The notes beneath the pieces were generated by a model, which was not told the DNA's origin, did no database searches, and was given only the letters and a program-made list of their open reading frames with translations. A DNA stretch of 6,195 bases, taken from assembly GCA_014383605.1 (NCBI GenBank), contig JACNHM010000622.1:1-6195 (forward strand), read 5' to 3'. The DNA comes from Chloroflexota bacterium. Lineage in GTDB: Bacteria; Chloroflexota; Anaerolineae; UBA3071. The translations under genes and the position numbers were made by a program. This document shows, piece by piece, positions 439 to 5,580 of this stretch. Numbering within the stretch: position 1 is the first letter of the stretch; every line of letters begins with the position of its first letter.

Positions 439-470
439 CCCTCTCCCCTTGGGAGAGGGTAGGGTGAGGG
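439..470 (+). repeat. Palindromic repeat, solitary copy (32 nt)
   Basis: A hairpin with arms CCCTCTCCC (439-447) and GGGAGAGGG (451-459), a 3-nt loop and an asymmetric tail ending AGGGTGAGGG (461-470). The same element occurs around the DUF559 gene in both orientations. Here it ends immediately before the surviving part of the EamA-like gene, so it sits at the break point of that gene. Confidence 0.9.
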
Positions 471-629
471 TCCCGACTCGACCTGAGCTATGCCTACCTC
501 ATGCTGGCTTCCATGTACGTGCTCATCCCCCTGGTGTCGTGGCTGTTTCTCGGTGAACGCATCCCGCCCCTGTGCTGGCTGGGCATGGCCGTTGTGGTGC
601 TGGGCGTGGTGATCGTGGCCAAGAGCTGA
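471..629 (+). pseudogene. EamA/DMT (ArnE-like) small transporter, C-terminal remnant
   Basis: The frame is open from 468 (after an in-frame TGA at 465-467 inside the palindromic repeat) to the TGA at 627-629. From 471 it reads SRLDLSYAYLMLASMYVL, then [12 protein letters not shown], then a last hydrophobic helix [16 protein letters not shown]. This is the typical second half of a four-helix SMR/EamA protein such as the ArnE/ArnF flippase subunits, about 110 residues when complete. The first half is absent and no trace of it is visible upstream, where only repeats lie. ATG codons at 501 and 513 could give a stub of about 40 residues, but it would lack half the fold. The stop overlaps the start of the acyltransferase gene (TGATG), so this was once a translationally coupled operon member, presumably flipping lipid-linked sugars. 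Confidence 0.75.
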
Positions 630-1438
630 TGGCGGATAGCCATGCGGTGAGCGAGGTGATTGGACAGTCGAATGCCATGCGGCCGCCTGGCCGCATGCGA
701 GCCCCGGGCGGCACATGGGCCAACCTGCGGCTGTACATCGGCCGCCAGGCAGCCAGCCCGGCCCGCTACGTCGCCGAGCAACTCCTCTTCGCCCTGGTGG
801 GCTGGGTGCCCACAGTACTGGGCATCGGGCTGCGAGCGCTTCTCTACCGCCTGATTCTGCGCATGGACGGCGTGGCGGCCATCGAAAACGGCGTGCGGCT
901 GCGCTTTGCCAGCCATATTTGGCTGGGCCGAGGCGTGTACATAGACCATGGCGTCTATCTTCACGCCTGCCCCAATGGCATCGAGATCGGCGCGGGCACC
1001 TTCGTCATGCACGGCGCCGAGCTGCACGTCTACAACTTCCGGGGCATCCCCCATTCGGGCATCAAAATCGGTCGCCACTGTTTGATCAGCGAGTACAACG
1101 TGCTGCGCGGCCAGGGTGGCATCACCATTGGCGACAACGTCTACACCGCCCCGCTGGTACAGATGCTGGCCGTGGATCACGTCTACGACGACCCGACGCG
1201 GCCCATCATCGAACAGGGGATCACGGCCCAGGGGATCATCATCGAAGACAATGCCTGGATCGGCGCCGGGGCCATCATCCTCGACGGCGTGCGGGTAGGC
1301 AAGGGCGCCGTGGTGGGCGCCGGAGCGGTCGTCGCGGAGGACGTGCCGCCGCACACTGTGGTGGCGGGAGTGCCGGCGAAGGTGGTGAAACGAATTGAAG
1401 GGCCGGCGACATCACCACGAGGAACAGTGTACTTCTGA
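629..1438 (+). CDS. Left-handed beta-helix (hexapeptide) acyltransferase
   Basis: This 269-residue protein transfers an acyl group, probably acetyl from acetyl-CoA, to a sugar or glycan precursor at the cytoplasmic membrane face. Hexapeptide turns are plain: IEIGAG (118-123), IKIGRH (145-150), ITIGDN (165-170) and [19 protein letters not shown] (203-221), followed by the family-typical [13 protein letters not shown] ending (244-256). His184 in AVDHVYDD is the likely catalytic base, in the position seen in WbbJ/maltose O-acetyltransferase relatives. Residues 46-79 form a hydrophobic segment ([18 protein letters not shown] and on) that probably lies on the membrane. I chose ATG 629 because it overlaps the transporter stop (TGATG); only a weak GAG stands in for a ribosome site, so coupling is likely. 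M17 (677) is an alternative start, since residues 1-28 look non-conserved. Neighbours suggest surface-glycan or glycolipid decoration; the substrate is unknown. Confidence 0.85.
676..697. repeat. Perfect 9-bp inverted repeat inside the acyltransferase 5' end
   Basis: Arms CATGCGGCC (676-684) and GGCCGCATG (689-697) with a 4-nt loop. It spans the alternative start codons M17 and M23 and lies in the poorly conserved leader of the protein. As mRNA it would form a strong stem near the start codon; whether this matters for translation is not visible. Confidence 0.6.
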
Positions 1439-1470
1439 GGGAATCGAGAGAATCTTTGGGAAACACCATC

Positions 1471-1571
1471 CCCTCTCCCCCTGGCAGAGGGCCCATCCCC
1501 TCTCCCTCTGGGAGAGGGCCAGGGTGAGGGCAATCGTCCCCTCTCCCCCTGGGAGAGGGTTAGGGTGAGGG
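1471..1571 (+). repeat. Three palindromic repeats upstream of DUF559, direct orientation
   Basis: Copy 1 (1471-1491) has only the hairpin, with one stem mismatch and no tail. Copy 2 (1498-1530) and copy 3 (1539-1571) are full 33-mers: arm CCCTCTCCC, 3-nt loop, arm GGGAGAGGG, a 2-nt link and tail AGGGTGAGGG. The tails point towards the DUF559 gene. Quality improves towards the gene. The last copy runs directly into the DUF559 translation start. Confidence 0.95.
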
Positions 1572-1572
1572 G
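1562..1572 (+). promoter_or_regulatory. Repeat-supplied ribosome binding site for DUF559
   Basis: The tail of the third palindromic repeat reads AGGGTGAGGGG directly before the ATG at 1574. AGGG at 1562-1565 lies 8 nt from the ATG and is the plausible Shine-Dalgarno element. The in-frame GTG at 1565 inside the tail would be a poorer start, adding only three residues. Confidence 0.5.
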
Positions 1573-1573
1573 C

Positions 1574-2062
1574 ATGACCACCACCTACCATGGTGACCAA
1601 ACCCGGGTCACCCTCCTCGACCGCTGTCGCCAACTCCGCCAGTCAAGTACCGACGTCGAACGCTTGCTGTGGCGACTCCTGCGCAACCGGCAGGTTGCCG
1701 GAGCAAAGTTCCGTCGCCAGCATCAGCACGGACCTTACATCCTGGACTTCTACTGTCATGAGCACAAACTGGCTGTCGAAGCCGACGGAGGACAGCACAC
1801 CTCGCCAGATGCGATGGCCAGGGACACGGCCAGGACGCGATACTTGGAGTCACGAGGCATGCGCGTGTTGAGATTCACCAACTTGGAGATCCTGCAAGAG
1901 ACTGAAGGGGTGATCGCCAGGATTTGGGATGCCCTCACCCCGGCCCTCTCCCAGGGGGAGAGGGAGAATGAACTTCCCCCGGCCCTCTCCCGCGGGGAGA
2001 GGGAGAATGAGACTCAGCCCGGCCCTCCCCCAGGGGGAGCGGGGGCGGTGATGAGACGATGA
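1574..2062 (+). CDS. DUF559 domain endonuclease-like protein (Vsr/PD-(D/E)XK fold)
   Basis: This is a 162-residue protein. Residues about 14-118 are a complete DUF559 domain: helix [23 protein letters not shown] (27-49, in two overlapping stretches), then YILDFYC (55-61), AVEADGGQH (67-75) and [11 protein letters not shown] (97-107). Asp58, Glu69 and probably Asp71 and His75 form the expected nuclease centre. The family is related to the very-short-patch mismatch endonuclease Vsr; nicking activity is usually assumed and rarely tested. Residues 120-131 ([12 protein letters not shown]) and the rest of the tail are translation of inverted palindromic repeats, not domain sequence. ATG 1574 is preferred over GTG 1565. 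The stop overlaps the next gene's start (ATGA, 2059-2062). The domain has no obvious role in glycan synthesis, so the gene looks like an insertion into the operon. Confidence 0.85.
1932..2043 (-). repeat. Three palindromic repeats in the DUF559 3' end, inverted orientation
   Basis: Copy 1 (1932-1964) is a full 33-mer, the reverse complement of the upstream copies apart from two or three positions. Copy 2 (1977-2003) keeps a perfect stem but has a shortened tail. Copy 3 (2013-2043) is degenerate, with a mismatched stem. Tails again point to the DUF559 core. All three are inside the reading frame and encode the [16 protein letters not shown] C-terminal extension. Confidence 0.95.
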
Positions 2063-3330
2063 CCGAGAAGTTCGCAATCCGCAATCCGCAACCTGTGGTG
2101 AGCAAAGTCGAACCATCCGCAATCCACAATCCGGTCACGTTGTCGGTGGTGATCCCAGCCTACAACGAAGAGGACGGCATCGCCGCCATCGTGGAGCGGG
2201 TGCTGGCCGTGCGGGAGCCGCTGGCCGCCATCGGCATGGGCCTCGAGCTCATTGTGGTTGACGACGGCTCCTGCGACGGCACGGCGGCGATCACCCGCCG
2301 CTACGATAGCGTCACCCTGGTCTGCCACGAGCGGAACAGCGGCTATGGCGCGGCGCTCAAGACCGGCTTTGCCCTGGCCGGCGGCGAGTGGCTGGGCTTC
2401 CTCGACGCCGACGGCACCTACCCGCCGGAGCATTTCCCCCAACTGTGCCGGGCGGCATTGGAACAGGAAGCCGACCTGGTGATCGGCTCGCGTCGCTCGG
2501 GCGCCGAGAGCGAGATGCCCATGATGCGCCGCGTGGGCAACCTGTTGTGGTCCAGTCTGGTCACCTTACTGGGCAATCACCGCGTGGTGGACCCGGCCAG
2601 CGGCATGCGCGTGATCCGGCGGGAAACGCTCCCCCGGCTCTACCCCCTGCCCGATGGCTTGAACTTCACGCCGGTGATGAGCACGCGGGCTATCCACGAG
2701 AACCTCAAGATGGTCGAGGTGCCCATCCCCTACCGCGAGCGCGTGGGCCACTCCAAGCTGAGCGTGGTGCGCGACGGCACCCGCTTCCTCAATTCCATCA
2801 TCTGGACGGCGCTGTGCTACAACCCCGTGCGGCCCCTGGGCCTGGTGGGCCTGGGCTGCCTCGGGCTGGCCGGGCTGATCGGCCTGGCCATGCTGACCTT
2901 GCGCTTGCGGGGAGTGACCACCTTGGGGCCATGGGGGGTCGGGGCCTTCTTCGCCGCCCAGGTGCTGGCCGTCACCGGGGTGAGCATCTTCGCCCTAGGC
3001 GCAACCTTCAACTACCTGGTCTCCCTTTTCCATAAACGGCCCGTGCGCCAGGGGCTGTTTGGCCGGCCGCTGCTTGAGCCCTCCCTGGACCACCACTTCG
3101 GCTGGCTGGGGTTGCTGACCATGGCCGGCGGCGGCGTCCTGGGCCTCATCTGCATGATCCTGGGGCTCAGCGGCTGGCCGGTCTCCCGGCTGTGGCTCTA
3201 CCTGCTGGGTGGGGCCATGCTCTTCCTGGTGGGGTTGCAACTGGCCGTCTTCTGGGTCGTCATGCGCGTGCTGGAAGAGCTAAGCCAGCGCGAGGCGGAC
3301 GTACACAGGGATTTGGGAGGTGACCGCTGA
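2059..3330 (+). CDS. GT2 glycosyltransferase, polyprenyl-phosphate type, membrane-anchored
   Basis: This 423-residue enzyme probably transfers a sugar from a nucleotide donor to polyprenyl phosphate on the cytoplasmic side of the membrane. The GT-A core (about 26-250) shows [13 protein letters not shown] (28-40), VVDDGS (66-71), [11 protein letters not shown] (93-103), the metal-binding DAD at 116-118 and RVGHSK (228-233), all typical of the dolichol-phosphate mannose synthase/GtrB/ArnC group. Four hydrophobic segments follow at about 260-281, 293-315, 349-371 and 379-401. The start is ATG 2059, overlapping the DUF559 stop, with GGTGAT at 2047-2052 as ribosome site. Residues 6-25 (AIRNPQ, VVSKVEP, AIHNP) are largely encoded by CAATCCG heptamer repeats, and the fold proper begins at Val26, so the native start was probably nearer 2134. 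Sugar specificity cannot be read. Confidence 0.9.
2075..2133. repeat. CAATCCG heptamer repeats in the glycosyltransferase leader
   Basis: CAATCCG at 2075-2081 and 2082-2088, then CAACCTG (2089-2095). After a 17-nt unrelated piece come CCATCCG (2113-2119), CAATCCA (2120-2126) and CAATCCG (2127-2133). The block lies between the start codon and the first beta strand of the enzyme and stays in frame. The same heptamer recurs inside the radical SAM gene. Confidence 0.85.
3315..3323 (+). promoter_or_regulatory. Shine-Dalgarno that supports a CTG start
   Basis: GGGAGGTGA lies inside the last codons of the glycosyltransferase gene. The GGGAGG core ends at 3320, six nt before the CTG at 3327, which is ideal spacing. 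No ATG, GTG or TTG codon in the radical SAM frame lies near it; the next is GTG 3402, about 80 nt away. The site therefore decides for the CTG start. Confidence 0.65.
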
Positions 3331-4898
3331 GCACCGTTGACGTCCTTCTGGTCAACCCACCGGCGCCCGACGGCGCCATCTGGATCCGCTCCCAGCATCG
3401 CGTGGGCCGTCGCAGCCGGGAGGGCATGATCTGGCCCCAGGTGTCGCTGGCCCAGATGGCCGCGCTGCTGGCTCCCGATTATTCCGTGGAGATCGTGGAC
3501 GCCATCGCCGAGCGCATGAGCTGGCCGCAGTTCGAAACGCTGCTGCGGGAGAAGCGCCCCCGCACCTACGTCACCCAGGTGACCGCCCCCACGCTGCAGA
3601 ACGACATGTACGGCACCTTCCTGGCCCGCTCCCTCGGCGCCCGCACCATCGCTTTCGGCACCCACGTCACTCCCTTGACCCGCGAGACGATGGCCTCTTA
3701 CCCCAGCCTGGACTTCGTCCTGCGCGGCGAGCCAGAGCTGACACTGGTGGAGTTGATCGAGACGCTATCGCAAAGCGCAAAGCTCAAAGCTCAAAGTTCA
3801 AAGGGGGAAACTCAGGGGAACTCGGGGGAACTCGGGGGAACTCAGAGGTGGGAGAAACTTTTCAAGGAGGCGGACCCCGAGTGGCAGCCGGCCTGGATGC
3901 GGGAGGATACCCAATCCGCAATCCGCAATCCGCAATCCGCAATCAAAGGCCTGGCCTGGCGCAACGGCAACGAGATCGTCATCAACCCCGATCGCCCCTT
4001 CATCAAGAACCTGGACGACCTGCCCCTGCCCTGCCACGACCTGTTGCCGCTGGAGCGCTACCGGGCGCCGATGGTCAAGGGGCCCTACAGCTTCGTCGTC
4101 ACCAGCCGCGGCTGCCCGGCCAACTGCCTCTTCTGCATCAAACACGTCAGCTACGGCCGCACGGTGCGCGTCCGCTCGCCGCAGAACGTGGTCGCCGAGC
4201 TGCGGCTGCTGCGGGATCTGGGGCTGCGCGACGTGCACATGTACGCCGACTTGTTCACCGTGGACCGGAATCACGTGATGGGCATCTGCGAGCTGATGCT
4301 GCAGGAGCAGCTCGATTTCCGCTGGACCTGCAACAGCCGCGTCGATTTCGTGGACGAGGAGATGCTGCGGCTGATGGCCCGGGCCGGCTGCTGGATGATC
4401 GCCTGGGGCATCGAGTCGGCGGACGAGGGGATATTGCGCCGCGTGCGCAAGGGCTACCGGCCGGAGCGGGCGGCGCAGACGCTGGGCTGGGCCAAAGCGG
4501 CGGGGATCAGGAACTACGGTTATTTCATCGTCGGTCTGCCCGGCGAGACCGAGGAGACGGTGCGGCAGACCATCGAGTTGGCCAGGAAGCTGCCCCTCGA
4601 CCTGGCCCTGTTCCACATCGCCGCACCCTATCCGGGCACGCCTTTCTACCAGGAGGCGTTGGAACAGGGGTGGTTCCGGGCGGGGGCGCGCTGGGAAGAC
4701 GTGGACATGGACCGCTCCACCGTGCTCGACTACCCGCAGATGGAGGCGGAGCGCATCGAGTATTGGGCGCGGCGGGCCTTCCGGGAGTGGGCCTTGCGGC
4801 CGGGACCGATCTGGACCTATCTGACCAGCATGCTCAGCCCGGCCACCTTCCGCTCGGCAGTGGAGATTGGCTTGGAGAGCCTCGGCTGGGTCAGGTAG
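3327..4898 (+). CDS. B12-binding-fold radical SAM protein
   Basis: From CTG 3327 this is a 523-residue protein. Residues 1-145 form a cobalamin-binding-type Rossmann domain that opens with [13 protein letters not shown], a strand that would be lost if translation began at GTG 3402. The radical SAM core (about 255-470) has the CxxxCxxC cluster motif CPANCLFC (Cys263, Cys267, Cys270), WGIES (360-364) and FIVGLPGE (400-407). Such enzymes use a 4Fe-4S cluster, S-adenosylmethionine and often cobalamin for difficult methylations or rearrangements. The SFWYP-like start, the NPDRP linker and the overall order recall the HpnJ/BchE-type family, which acts on lipids and tetrapyrroles. With its neighbours, modification of a polyprenyl-linked sugar or lipid is a fair guess; the reaction is unknown. 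Residues 149-207 include three repeat families. The gene overlaps the glycosyltransferase stop by 4 nt (CTGA). Confidence 0.85.
3771..3805. repeat. CAAAGCT heptamer repeat in the radical SAM linker
   Basis: Five consecutive heptamers: CAAAGCG, CAAAGCT, CAAAGCT, CAAAGTT, CAAAGGG. Because 7 is not a multiple of 3, each unit is read in a different frame, giving the peptide AKLKAQSSK. It starts right after the cobalamin-domain helix LVELIETL. Confidence 0.9.
3811..3847. repeat. 10-bp CTCRGGGGAA tandem repeat in the radical SAM linker
   Basis: Copies at 3811-3820 (CTCAGGGGAA), 3821-3830 and 3831-3840 (both CTCGGGGGAA), with a partial copy at 3841-3847. It encodes [12 protein letters not shown]. 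It lies 5 nt downstream of the CAAAGCT block but is a distinct family. Confidence 0.85.
3912..3944. repeat. CAATCCG heptamer repeat in the radical SAM linker
   Basis: Four perfect CAATCCG units (3912-3939) and a partial fifth. It encodes [11 protein letters not shown] just before the conserved [17 protein letters not shown] strand pair. It is the same family as in the glycosyltransferase leader. Confidence 0.95.
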
Positions 4899-4942: not shown

Positions 4943-5284
4943 TCAGGGTAGATCCAAAGTGATCTTCAGGGCATGGTCAACCTGGGCCATCGTGTCTGGT
5001 TCCAACTGTCCAAGACGCTGTTGCAGACGAGACTTGGCCACAGCCCGCACCTGAAGCGTCAACACCACCGAGTCAACCTGCAGGCCGCCCTCGGGTGCTT
5101 TGACCAGCACGTCACTGGGATAGAGTCGAGTGAGAGGACGAGCACTGGTCAGAGGGCAAATGACGACCACAGGGCTGTACTGATTGATGGCCTTTCTGGA
5201 GACGATCACACCGGGTCGGGTGCCAGCTTGTTCCGAGCCTTCGATCGGGTCGAGACGAACCCGGTAAACGTCTCCCCGCTTCAT
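4943..5284 (-). CDS. mazF: MazF/PemK-type endoribonuclease toxin
   Basis: This 113-residue protein is a sequence-specific mRNA interferase. It begins MKRGDVYRVRLDP and shows the family marks GTRPGVIVS with Arg23 and CPLTS with Thr46, equivalent to the catalytic Arg/Thr pair of Bacillus MazF. The C-terminal part has GGLQVDSVVLTLQVRAVAKSRL, where relatives usually have DQIRTVDK; the fold looks intact. I start at 5284, not at the upstream ATG, because it follows a GGGGAG site and overlaps the antitoxin stop by ATGA (5281-5284). It is the second gene of an antitoxin-toxin operon, so expression depends on the promoter at 5636-5664. It converges on the radical SAM gene. Confidence 0.9.
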   Translation of the reverse strand: MKRGDVYRVRLDPIEGSEQAGTRPGVIVSRKAINQYSPVVVICPLTSARPLTRLYPSDVLVKAPEGGLQVDSVVLTLQVRAVAKSRLQQRLGQLEPDTMAQVDHALKITLDLP

Positions 5285-5580
5285 GGCTGCGTCTCCCCGG
5301 CCTGCAATGCCTGCCAATCGGCGTGGGCGAATTCGGCTACGATCTGGAGTTGGAGGGTCCGATAGTTCTCGTCCTCTGCCATCTGAGCAAACTCGGCGTC
5401 TATGCGGGTCTCCTCCAGGCGGGCCAGGTGTTCCTCCAGAGCCTGCACGATGAAGCTATTCTGACTGGAAGCAGCGCCCTGCTTGATGGCGGATTGAATG
5501 CGGTCTCGCAAGCTCGCCGGCAAGTCCAGGGTGGTTCGGATCCTCGGCTCGCGGACTGCACTGGCCGTTCTAGTCGTCAT
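5281..5580 (-). CDS. mazE: Ribbon-helix-helix antitoxin of the MazF partner
   Basis: This 99-residue protein should neutralise the MazF toxin and repress its own operon. Residues 13-57 are a CopG/Arc-like ribbon-helix-helix: strand RIRTTLDLP, helix SLRDRIQSAIKQG and helix SQNSFIVQALEEHLARL. The acidic tail (58-99: RIDAEFAQMAEDENY, then VAEFAHADWQAL) is the usual toxin-binding segment of RHH-type MazE proteins. ATG 5580 is preceded by AAGGAG (5592-5597), 11 nt upstream. It belongs to the RHH, not the AbrB, class of MazE. Confidence 0.88.
   Translation of the reverse strand: MTTRTASAVREPRIRTTLDLPASLRDRIQSAIKQGAASSQNSFIVQALEEHLARLEETRIDAEFAQMAEDENYRTLQLQIVAEFAHADWQALQAGETQP

Follow-up and report, generated by a model that had tools for sequence, protein, structure and literature searches.

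Tailed palindromic repeats have been described in several forms. The TM_ECO repeats of Holder et al. 2015 (PMC4666352), formerly named BoxC and PIT, consist of a hairpin and a mirror tail with the pattern CCCTCNCCC-N3-6-GGGNGAGGG-N3-GGGNGAGGG and form an intrastrand triplex in vitro. That paper already describes inverted TM_ECO pairs, places the motifs near all kinds of genes with no particular gene class, reports that no mobility activity was found near them, and relates earlier work in which PIT elements had neither promoter nor terminator activity (PMC4666352). In REP/RAYT systems, short end-tagged palindromes in opposite-orientation pairs flank a gene, with further REP copies elsewhere and inside genes (PMC3733652). 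On the protein side, DUF559 has been placed in the EDxHD family by an intein survey (PMC9403480), and the Escherichia coli DUF559 protein YcjD, which has a BoxC copy downstream, has been tied to Vsr by profile (PMC1189080). The closest solved structure is that of another DUF559 protein, Neisseria gonorrhoeae NGO0050 (3hrl). We found no description of YcjD or NGO0050 with cognate repeats in the available portions of the open-access literature, and no paper there linking DUF559 with BoxC/PIT/TM repeats; measured against that literature, the repeat is already known and its link to a DUF559 nuclease is new.

The window, the whole 6,195-nucleotide stretch of Chloroflexota DNA analyzed here, carries a DUF559 (PF04480) nuclease gene on the plus strand at 1574 to 2062, encoding 162 amino acids from ATG 1574 (PF04480 E 5.7e-35). 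It lies between two genes of an operon, a hexapeptide acyltransferase gene (605 to 1438, plus strand; PF00132) and a family 2 glycosyltransferase gene (2059 to 3330, plus strand; PF00535). No stop interrupts the DUF559 frame between that of the acyltransferase (TGA 1436 to 1438) and TGA 2060 to 2062, which overlaps the glycosyltransferase ATG at 2059, and this open stretch (1439 to 2059, plus strand) spans six bracketing repeats. A preliminary description of the locus had placed three palindromes before the gene and three reversed ones after it, and all six cores were located between 1471 and 2043. Each core reads CCCTCTCCC-n3-GGGAGAGGG with 0 to 2 mismatches, starting at 1471, 1498, and 1539 upstream and at 1944, 1983, and 2023 downstream.

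The innermost upstream copy (1539 to 1571, plus strand), a triplex-type repeat, is CCCTCTCCC CCT GGGAGAGGG TTA GGGTGAGGG; beyond it lie a second tailed copy (1498 to 1530, plus strand) and an outer copy reduced to the core, with one arm mismatch and no tail (1471 to 1491, plus strand). The two inner upstream copies fit the published TM_ECO pattern and so have the same sequence type as BoxC/PIT/TM_ECO. The downstream repeats run in the opposite orientation: an innermost copy that is translated into the C terminus (1932 to 1964, minus strand), a second with a degenerate tail (1973 to 2003, minus strand), and an outer core with 2 mismatches (2023 to 2043, minus strand). Upstream tails (AGGGTGAGGG) come after the core, and the downstream tail (CCCTCACCC) comes before it. 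A mirror-tail scan was passed by four of the six copies (1499 to 1530 and 1540 to 1571, plus strand; 1932 to 1963 and 1973 to 2003, minus strand), and the outermost copy on either side has no intact tail. The innermost copies are thus the best preserved, as first noted; the companion claim that all tails point inward is correct wherever a tail remains and fails for the outermost copies. Tailed motifs number 5 in the window, compared with a mean of 0.11 and a maximum of 2 in 200 order-1 Markov copies; for the two flanks alone, such copies gave a mean of 0.22 and a maximum of 2 (n = 500). The downstream copies are indeed read as protein, with residues from about 123 onward encoded by repeats, and AGGG at 1562 to 1565, in the innermost upstream tail, could be the ribosome site.

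A solitary tailed copy with a 2-nt second loop, absent from the preliminary description, lies at 439 to 470 (plus strand), adjoined by an eight-base-periodic array (AGGGAGCA/GGAGTGCA) at 297 to 432. Other repeats in the window are an ATCCGCAATCCGCAATC minisatellite, translated in frame both at the start of the glycosyltransferase (2073 to 2131) and inside a radical SAM protein (3914 to 3944), and a tandem repeat with a ten-base unit (GGGGGAACTC), likewise in frame, within the radical SAM gene (3804 to 3843). A PemK/MazF-like toxin gene (4943 to 5317, minus strand; PF02452) and the small gene upstream of it (5281 to 5580, minus strand) are probably a toxin-antitoxin pair. Rfam gave no match in the window up to E 0.1, and a plasmid search returned short, repeat-sized matches and no whole element.

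To place the locus among its relatives, the surroundings of other DUF559 genes were compared. A search for homologues of the window protein found 4699, and among the 120 listed, whose end peptides were judged by letter rules, 59 carry a translated-repeat-like peptide at an end (53 at the C terminus, 13 at the N terminus), with 35 further homologues ending in ...SP. Various repeat frames are used in these termini, which implies that the DNA, and not one peptide, is conserved. A profile scan of species genomes yielded at least 590 stretches and 547 relatives, and the best 80 of the 547 loci, from 17 named phyla plus three unnamed, were analyzed. Among these 80, 59 have a BoxC-type core no more than 300 nt from the gene (upstream in 51, downstream in 46, on both sides in 38), with 138 matches in 51 kb near the gene versus 58 in 1,085 kb elsewhere, a density 50.6 times that of the rest of the same loci. 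A general motif, defined as an eight-pair hairpin, purine in one arm, plus a mirror tail, whatever the letters, lies within 300 nt in 77 of the 80 and is absent near the gene in 3; it occurs 194 times in 73.6 kb near the gene versus 95 times in 1,063 kb elsewhere (29.5 times the density), and shuffled near-gene regions gave about 1. The palindromes are therefore commoner beside DUF559 genes than elsewhere in these loci, whichever form is counted.

An independent draw was made from 121 Chloroflexota genomes by the Pfam model and not by similarity to the window, giving 73 matches in 44 genomes. The motif is present in 49 of 64 loci (46 of 61 when three loci fetched twice are removed) and absent from 15 of the 64, with 131 motifs in 57.8 kb near the gene versus 31 in 164 kb; the motif at one locus, L266, looks like chance. 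As far as sequence can tell, bracketing of the DUF559 gene by hairpins is a general layout. Here the motif differs from TM_ECO as described in that it brackets one kind of gene and spans many phyla.

Orientation was scored in 214 pooled loci, which are related and partly duplicate. The innermost upstream copies point inward in 99 cases and outward in 30, with 14 ambiguous, and the innermost downstream copies inward in 95 and outward in 35, with 7 ambiguous; outward copies thus make up 30 of the 129 unambiguous cases upstream and 35 of the 130 downstream, and orientation is nonrandom. Neighboring copies in opposite orientation are tail outward in 99 pairs and tail inward in 22. In a purine triplex, G lies on G:C, and A or T lies on A:T. 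The tail letter opposite an arm G is G in 1705 of 1775 positions, while opposite an arm A it is A in 375, T in 260, G in 35, and C in 15 (A or T in 635 of 685). These are the letters that a purine triplex would ask for, and such a triplex may form in cells. Among the arms that are not their own mirror (n = 192), the tail matches the mirror in 58 and a direct copy in 33 (at most 2 mismatches); over all 596 hairpins the figures are 238 and 209, a count that includes self-mirror arms, for which mirror and direct copies are indistinguishable. Mirror geometry of the tail is favored and is not universal.

The 119 Acinetobacter genomes examined contain two DUF559 classes, A (39 matches) and B (about 48 matches). 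A BoxC-type core lies within 300 nt in 36 of 36 class A loci and in 0 of 20 class B loci, whereas the general scan finds that 17 of the 20 class B loci (L118 to L137) have A-rich hairpin and mirror-tail repeats of their own, such as CCTCCCTTT..AAAGGGAGG-TTA-GGAGGGATT. DUF559 fragments in the genus (L138 to L151), which appear to be decayed elements, still adjoin a BoxC-type core in 5 of 14 cases. On a nuclease tree with 83 G-type, 27 A-type, and 7 unlabeled rows, repeat type changes 3 times, compared with 24.3 after shuffling, which reached so low a count in 0 of 500 trials. This tree was built from few alignment columns and leaves 56 of 114 inner branches unresolved, and Acinetobacter class B accounts for 17 of its 27 A-type rows. 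Protein identity correlates with repeat similarity (Spearman 0.402; 0 of 2000 permutations), also for pairs from different phyla (0.387; 0 of 500) and within G-type loci alone (0.278; 0 of 500), and more weakly for G-type pairs between phyla (0.247; 4 of 500). Repeat similarity is 0.27 between Acinetobacter classes A and B and 0.41 between class B and its kin in other phyla. Repeat sequence thus follows nuclease lineage rather than host, and in this BoxC/PIT/TM_ECO differs from its earlier description: it is one version among several that differ in letters, and each version goes with a nuclease lineage of its own.

The AlphaFold2 model of the window DUF559 protein has a mean pLDDT of 81.6 with a high-confidence core, and residues 121 to 162 fall in blocks of pLDDT 54 to 67. 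Foldseek matches it to 3hrl (45% identity) and to the catalytic domain of the EDxHD homing endonuclease I-Bth0305I, 3r3p, which is also matched by profile (E 0.0016), as well as to protist mitoribosome parts and, more weakly, Vsr (1vsr). For this protein, labeled "Vsr-like" in the preliminary description, the nearest structures are 3hrl and I-Bth0305I, with Vsr after them. E29, E69, D71, H75, and D84 are invariant in 26 sequences and may be functional residues. In the window gene, Pfam finds no families other than PF04480 and PF18741, and it finds no splicing domain in the window. Unlike an EDxHD homing gene, the window gene has no intron, intein, or added DNA-binding domain and is flanked by cognate repeats instead. 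Elsewhere, DUF559 lies between intein-like halves in L256, L257, and L261 (PF14890 is weak and below its cutoff), with a DNA methylase domain upstream in L256 and L261, which suggests that the family also serves as an intein homing endonuclease.

In layout the unit resembles REP/RAYT: short tagged palindromes in opposite pairs flank a gene and recur elsewhere in the genome, as found in relatives of the window, and inside genes. It differs in that DUF559 is predicted to be a PD-(D/E)XK/EDxHD-type nuclease and not a tyrosine transposase, in that a mirror purine tail (GGGTGAGGG or some other near-mirror of the arm) takes the place of a GTAG or CGTC tag, and in that DUF559 units insert in frame in essential genes. 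It is thus REP/RAYT-like in layout and homing-gene-like in predicted fold, and it departs from each on a defining point.

A closer look at the window operon shows what the locus looks like when the gene is missing. Among 400 Chloroflexota genomes, 40 matched and 12 loci were read; the acyltransferase is upstream in 9 of the 12 and adjoins the glycosyltransferase in 7 of those. In the seven, which are distant from the window at about 58 to 67% identity, the acyltransferase stop and glycosyltransferase start are separated by anything from a 4-nt overlap to 19 nt, compared with 620 nt in the window. Not all relatives therefore carry the gene at this locus.

Insertion also reaches into other proteins. 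Palindromic repeats lying in frame inside protein genes are also known from the Rickettsia palindromic elements, which differ in sequence and host and for which we know of no linked nuclease. DUF559 sits within a long open frame in 35 of the 214 loci, and in ten of these Pfam domains of one host protein are found on both sides: MetH (L006, L024, L258, L274, and L275), HrpA (L009 and L015), MetG (L012 and L059), and ValS (L007). Other long-frame loci, recognized on a single side, involve methylases, HsdM, HsdS, a Mur ligase, and GATase. Since L006 comes from an isolate, not all in-frame insertions are binning artifacts. In Gallionellaceae, with 77 HrpA genes, DUF559 is embedded in HrpA nine times, each time sharing the open frame of its host, and out-of-frame insertions numbered 0 of 9 in hrpA, the one gene considered. 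The nuclease core and invariant residues are kept in hrpA-embedded copies as well.

An alignment of 22 HrpA genes (14 of the 20 fetched having been chosen for long frames) reveals four linker sites, each with nothing, a repeat-coded stretch, or the full element. Site 1 is full in 8 of the 22, and clear doublets occur there in L015 and L314, the latter nested among full genes; L308 is a doublet by the letter rule, its 27 residues being doubtful. Fullness at site 1 marks one clade, with later losses, of which that in L314 leaves a doublet. Site 2 is full in two separate lineages, and the doublet label there, assigned by length, also takes in other, non-triplex repeats. At a spot in hsdM, the full element is present in L001 and L002, its downstream half only in L013, an in-frame doublet alone in L162, and nothing in L164, with other inserts in L159, L160, and L161. 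L002 hsdM has a second insert at about 9115 to 9390, with a 3-nt overlap of the flanking matches, that breaks the frame, so this copy is uninformative on kept function. Empty, repeat-only, and full states are thus found at the same site, and both empty and full alleles exist.

Different inserts use these linkers as well: L159 and L160 have an in-frame palindromic insert, GTAGG(T/C)TGGG...CCCA(A/G)CCTAC, at the hsdM spot, and L313 and L320 have other in-frame inserts at HrpA site 2, that of L320 being a GRNP...GLRRND-type repeat peptide. As to features of MITEs and insertion sequences, inverted repeats are present, and no target-site duplication or exact excision was seen among the compared relatives, which are too distant for base-level junctions.

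Candidate empty sites in two other groups were rejected. In E. coli, the ycjD region is found at at least 80% query coverage in 3333 of 5426 genomes, and the examined strains lacking ycjD hold eefRABCD in its place, an operon of efflux genes (PMC12817139), so the site is not clean; rows H57 and H56 carry ycjD, truncated in H57, and H80 is a short match at another locus. At Acinetobacter rpmA (L089), the upstream match ends near the element, and the downstream flank is adjacent in 0 of 8 relatives. Acinetobacter site counts were also set aside: scoring both flanks sorts the 36 class A loci into 18 sites and the 20 class B loci into 16, and the one-flank version lumps nearly all.

Repeats are not confined to the neighborhood of the gene. 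Genome-wide counts, taken from relatives of the window and not from its own genome, showed that each of the 19 genomes from which loci were drawn contains between 2 and 149 exact cores, with a reversed control pattern absent in 18 of the 19, and in a second set the core was present in 10 of 12 genomes. The Acinetobacter motif occurs in 39 of 39 genomes with class A and in 41 of 80 without it, a comparison that partly restates bracketing; more than 5 copies are found in 17 of 39 and 18 of 80, respectively. Among 48 Acinetobacter genomes without a DUF559 match at threshold, 16 still contain the motif, in up to 16 copies. Repeats can therefore remain or arrive where the gene is absent, and in some genomes they outlast or precede it.

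Taken together, enrichment near the gene, inward bias, and relatives without the gene support the selfish nuclease-repeat unit with REP/RAYT-like layout that was first suspected. Comparison shows the bracketing, the inward bias, the pairing of repeat and nuclease, insertion at many sites, some in frame, and the different states of one site. We consider it likely, short of firmly established, that DUF559 gene and hairpins form a single mobile unit whose nuclease moves its cognate repeats. Each repeat, cognate to the nuclease on this reading, is a hairpin of the BoxC/PIT/TM design, with one purine-rich arm and a mirror purine tail behind it, and two copies often form a tail-outward doublet on one or both sides of the gene. 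The EDxHD/Vsr-type nuclease would bind its repeat where single-stranded DNA, such as that of replication forks, lets the repeat extrude as a hairpin or triplex, and would nick or cut there; repair against another copy would then put either a doublet or the entire gene at a different site. Recombination between flanking doublets would lose the gene and leave a solo doublet, and an intragenic copy would survive only if its repeats can be translated in the host's frame and the insert is tolerated at that site.

The same repeats might instead be spread by other machinery, with homing-type DUF559 genes landing at repeats that are permissive or recombinogenic. Genomes that hold repeats without a DUF559 match fit this picture, as do the intein-like genes of L256 and L261, which have no close repeats of the usual kind, and the unrelated inserts in the same hsdM and HrpA linkers, which indicate that shared sites may merely be permissive. 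However, repeat letters track nuclease lineage across phyla and differ between the two classes of one genus, and chance landing would give neither this tracking nor the inward bias, so we regard hitchhiking as unlikely. A role in serving the host through repeat maintenance, which the preliminary description also raised, with a Vsr-like enzyme that removes or mends hairpins and triplexes and has the nearby repeats as its regulatory or feedback target, would suit the predicted fold and the retention of the nuclease core and invariant residues, hrpA-embedded copies included. It fits poorly with scattered insertion, essential genes among the targets, patchy presence, and gene fragments, and we hold it to be quite improbable.

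A purely local function, with the hairpins acting as terminators, attenuators, or spacers for the DUF559 transcript and having no part in movement, would account for their closeness on both sides and for their being read through as protein linkers in several frames. Against it stand the many repeats far from any DUF559 gene, the match of tail to arm, and the inactivity of PIT as promoter or terminator in the earlier work noted above, and we give it very little credence. Returning to the mobile unit, we put at about even the broader proposition that it represents a new class of mobile element crossing phyla, in which an EDxHD/Vsr-type nuclease recognizes and moves its own triplex-forming repeats, makes both the gene copies and the genome-wide BoxC/TM repeats, and lives in frame inside essential proteins.

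Since the 1990s, BoxC/PIT/TM repeats have been familiar as widespread, unstable sequences for which no agent is known. If this proposal is correct, a dedicated nuclease for each repeat version would be that missing agent, and the origin and instability of the repeats would become directly testable. It would also give a function to the large, uncharacterized family DUF559 and would describe a mobile element able to persist within essential proteins by preserving their reading frame.
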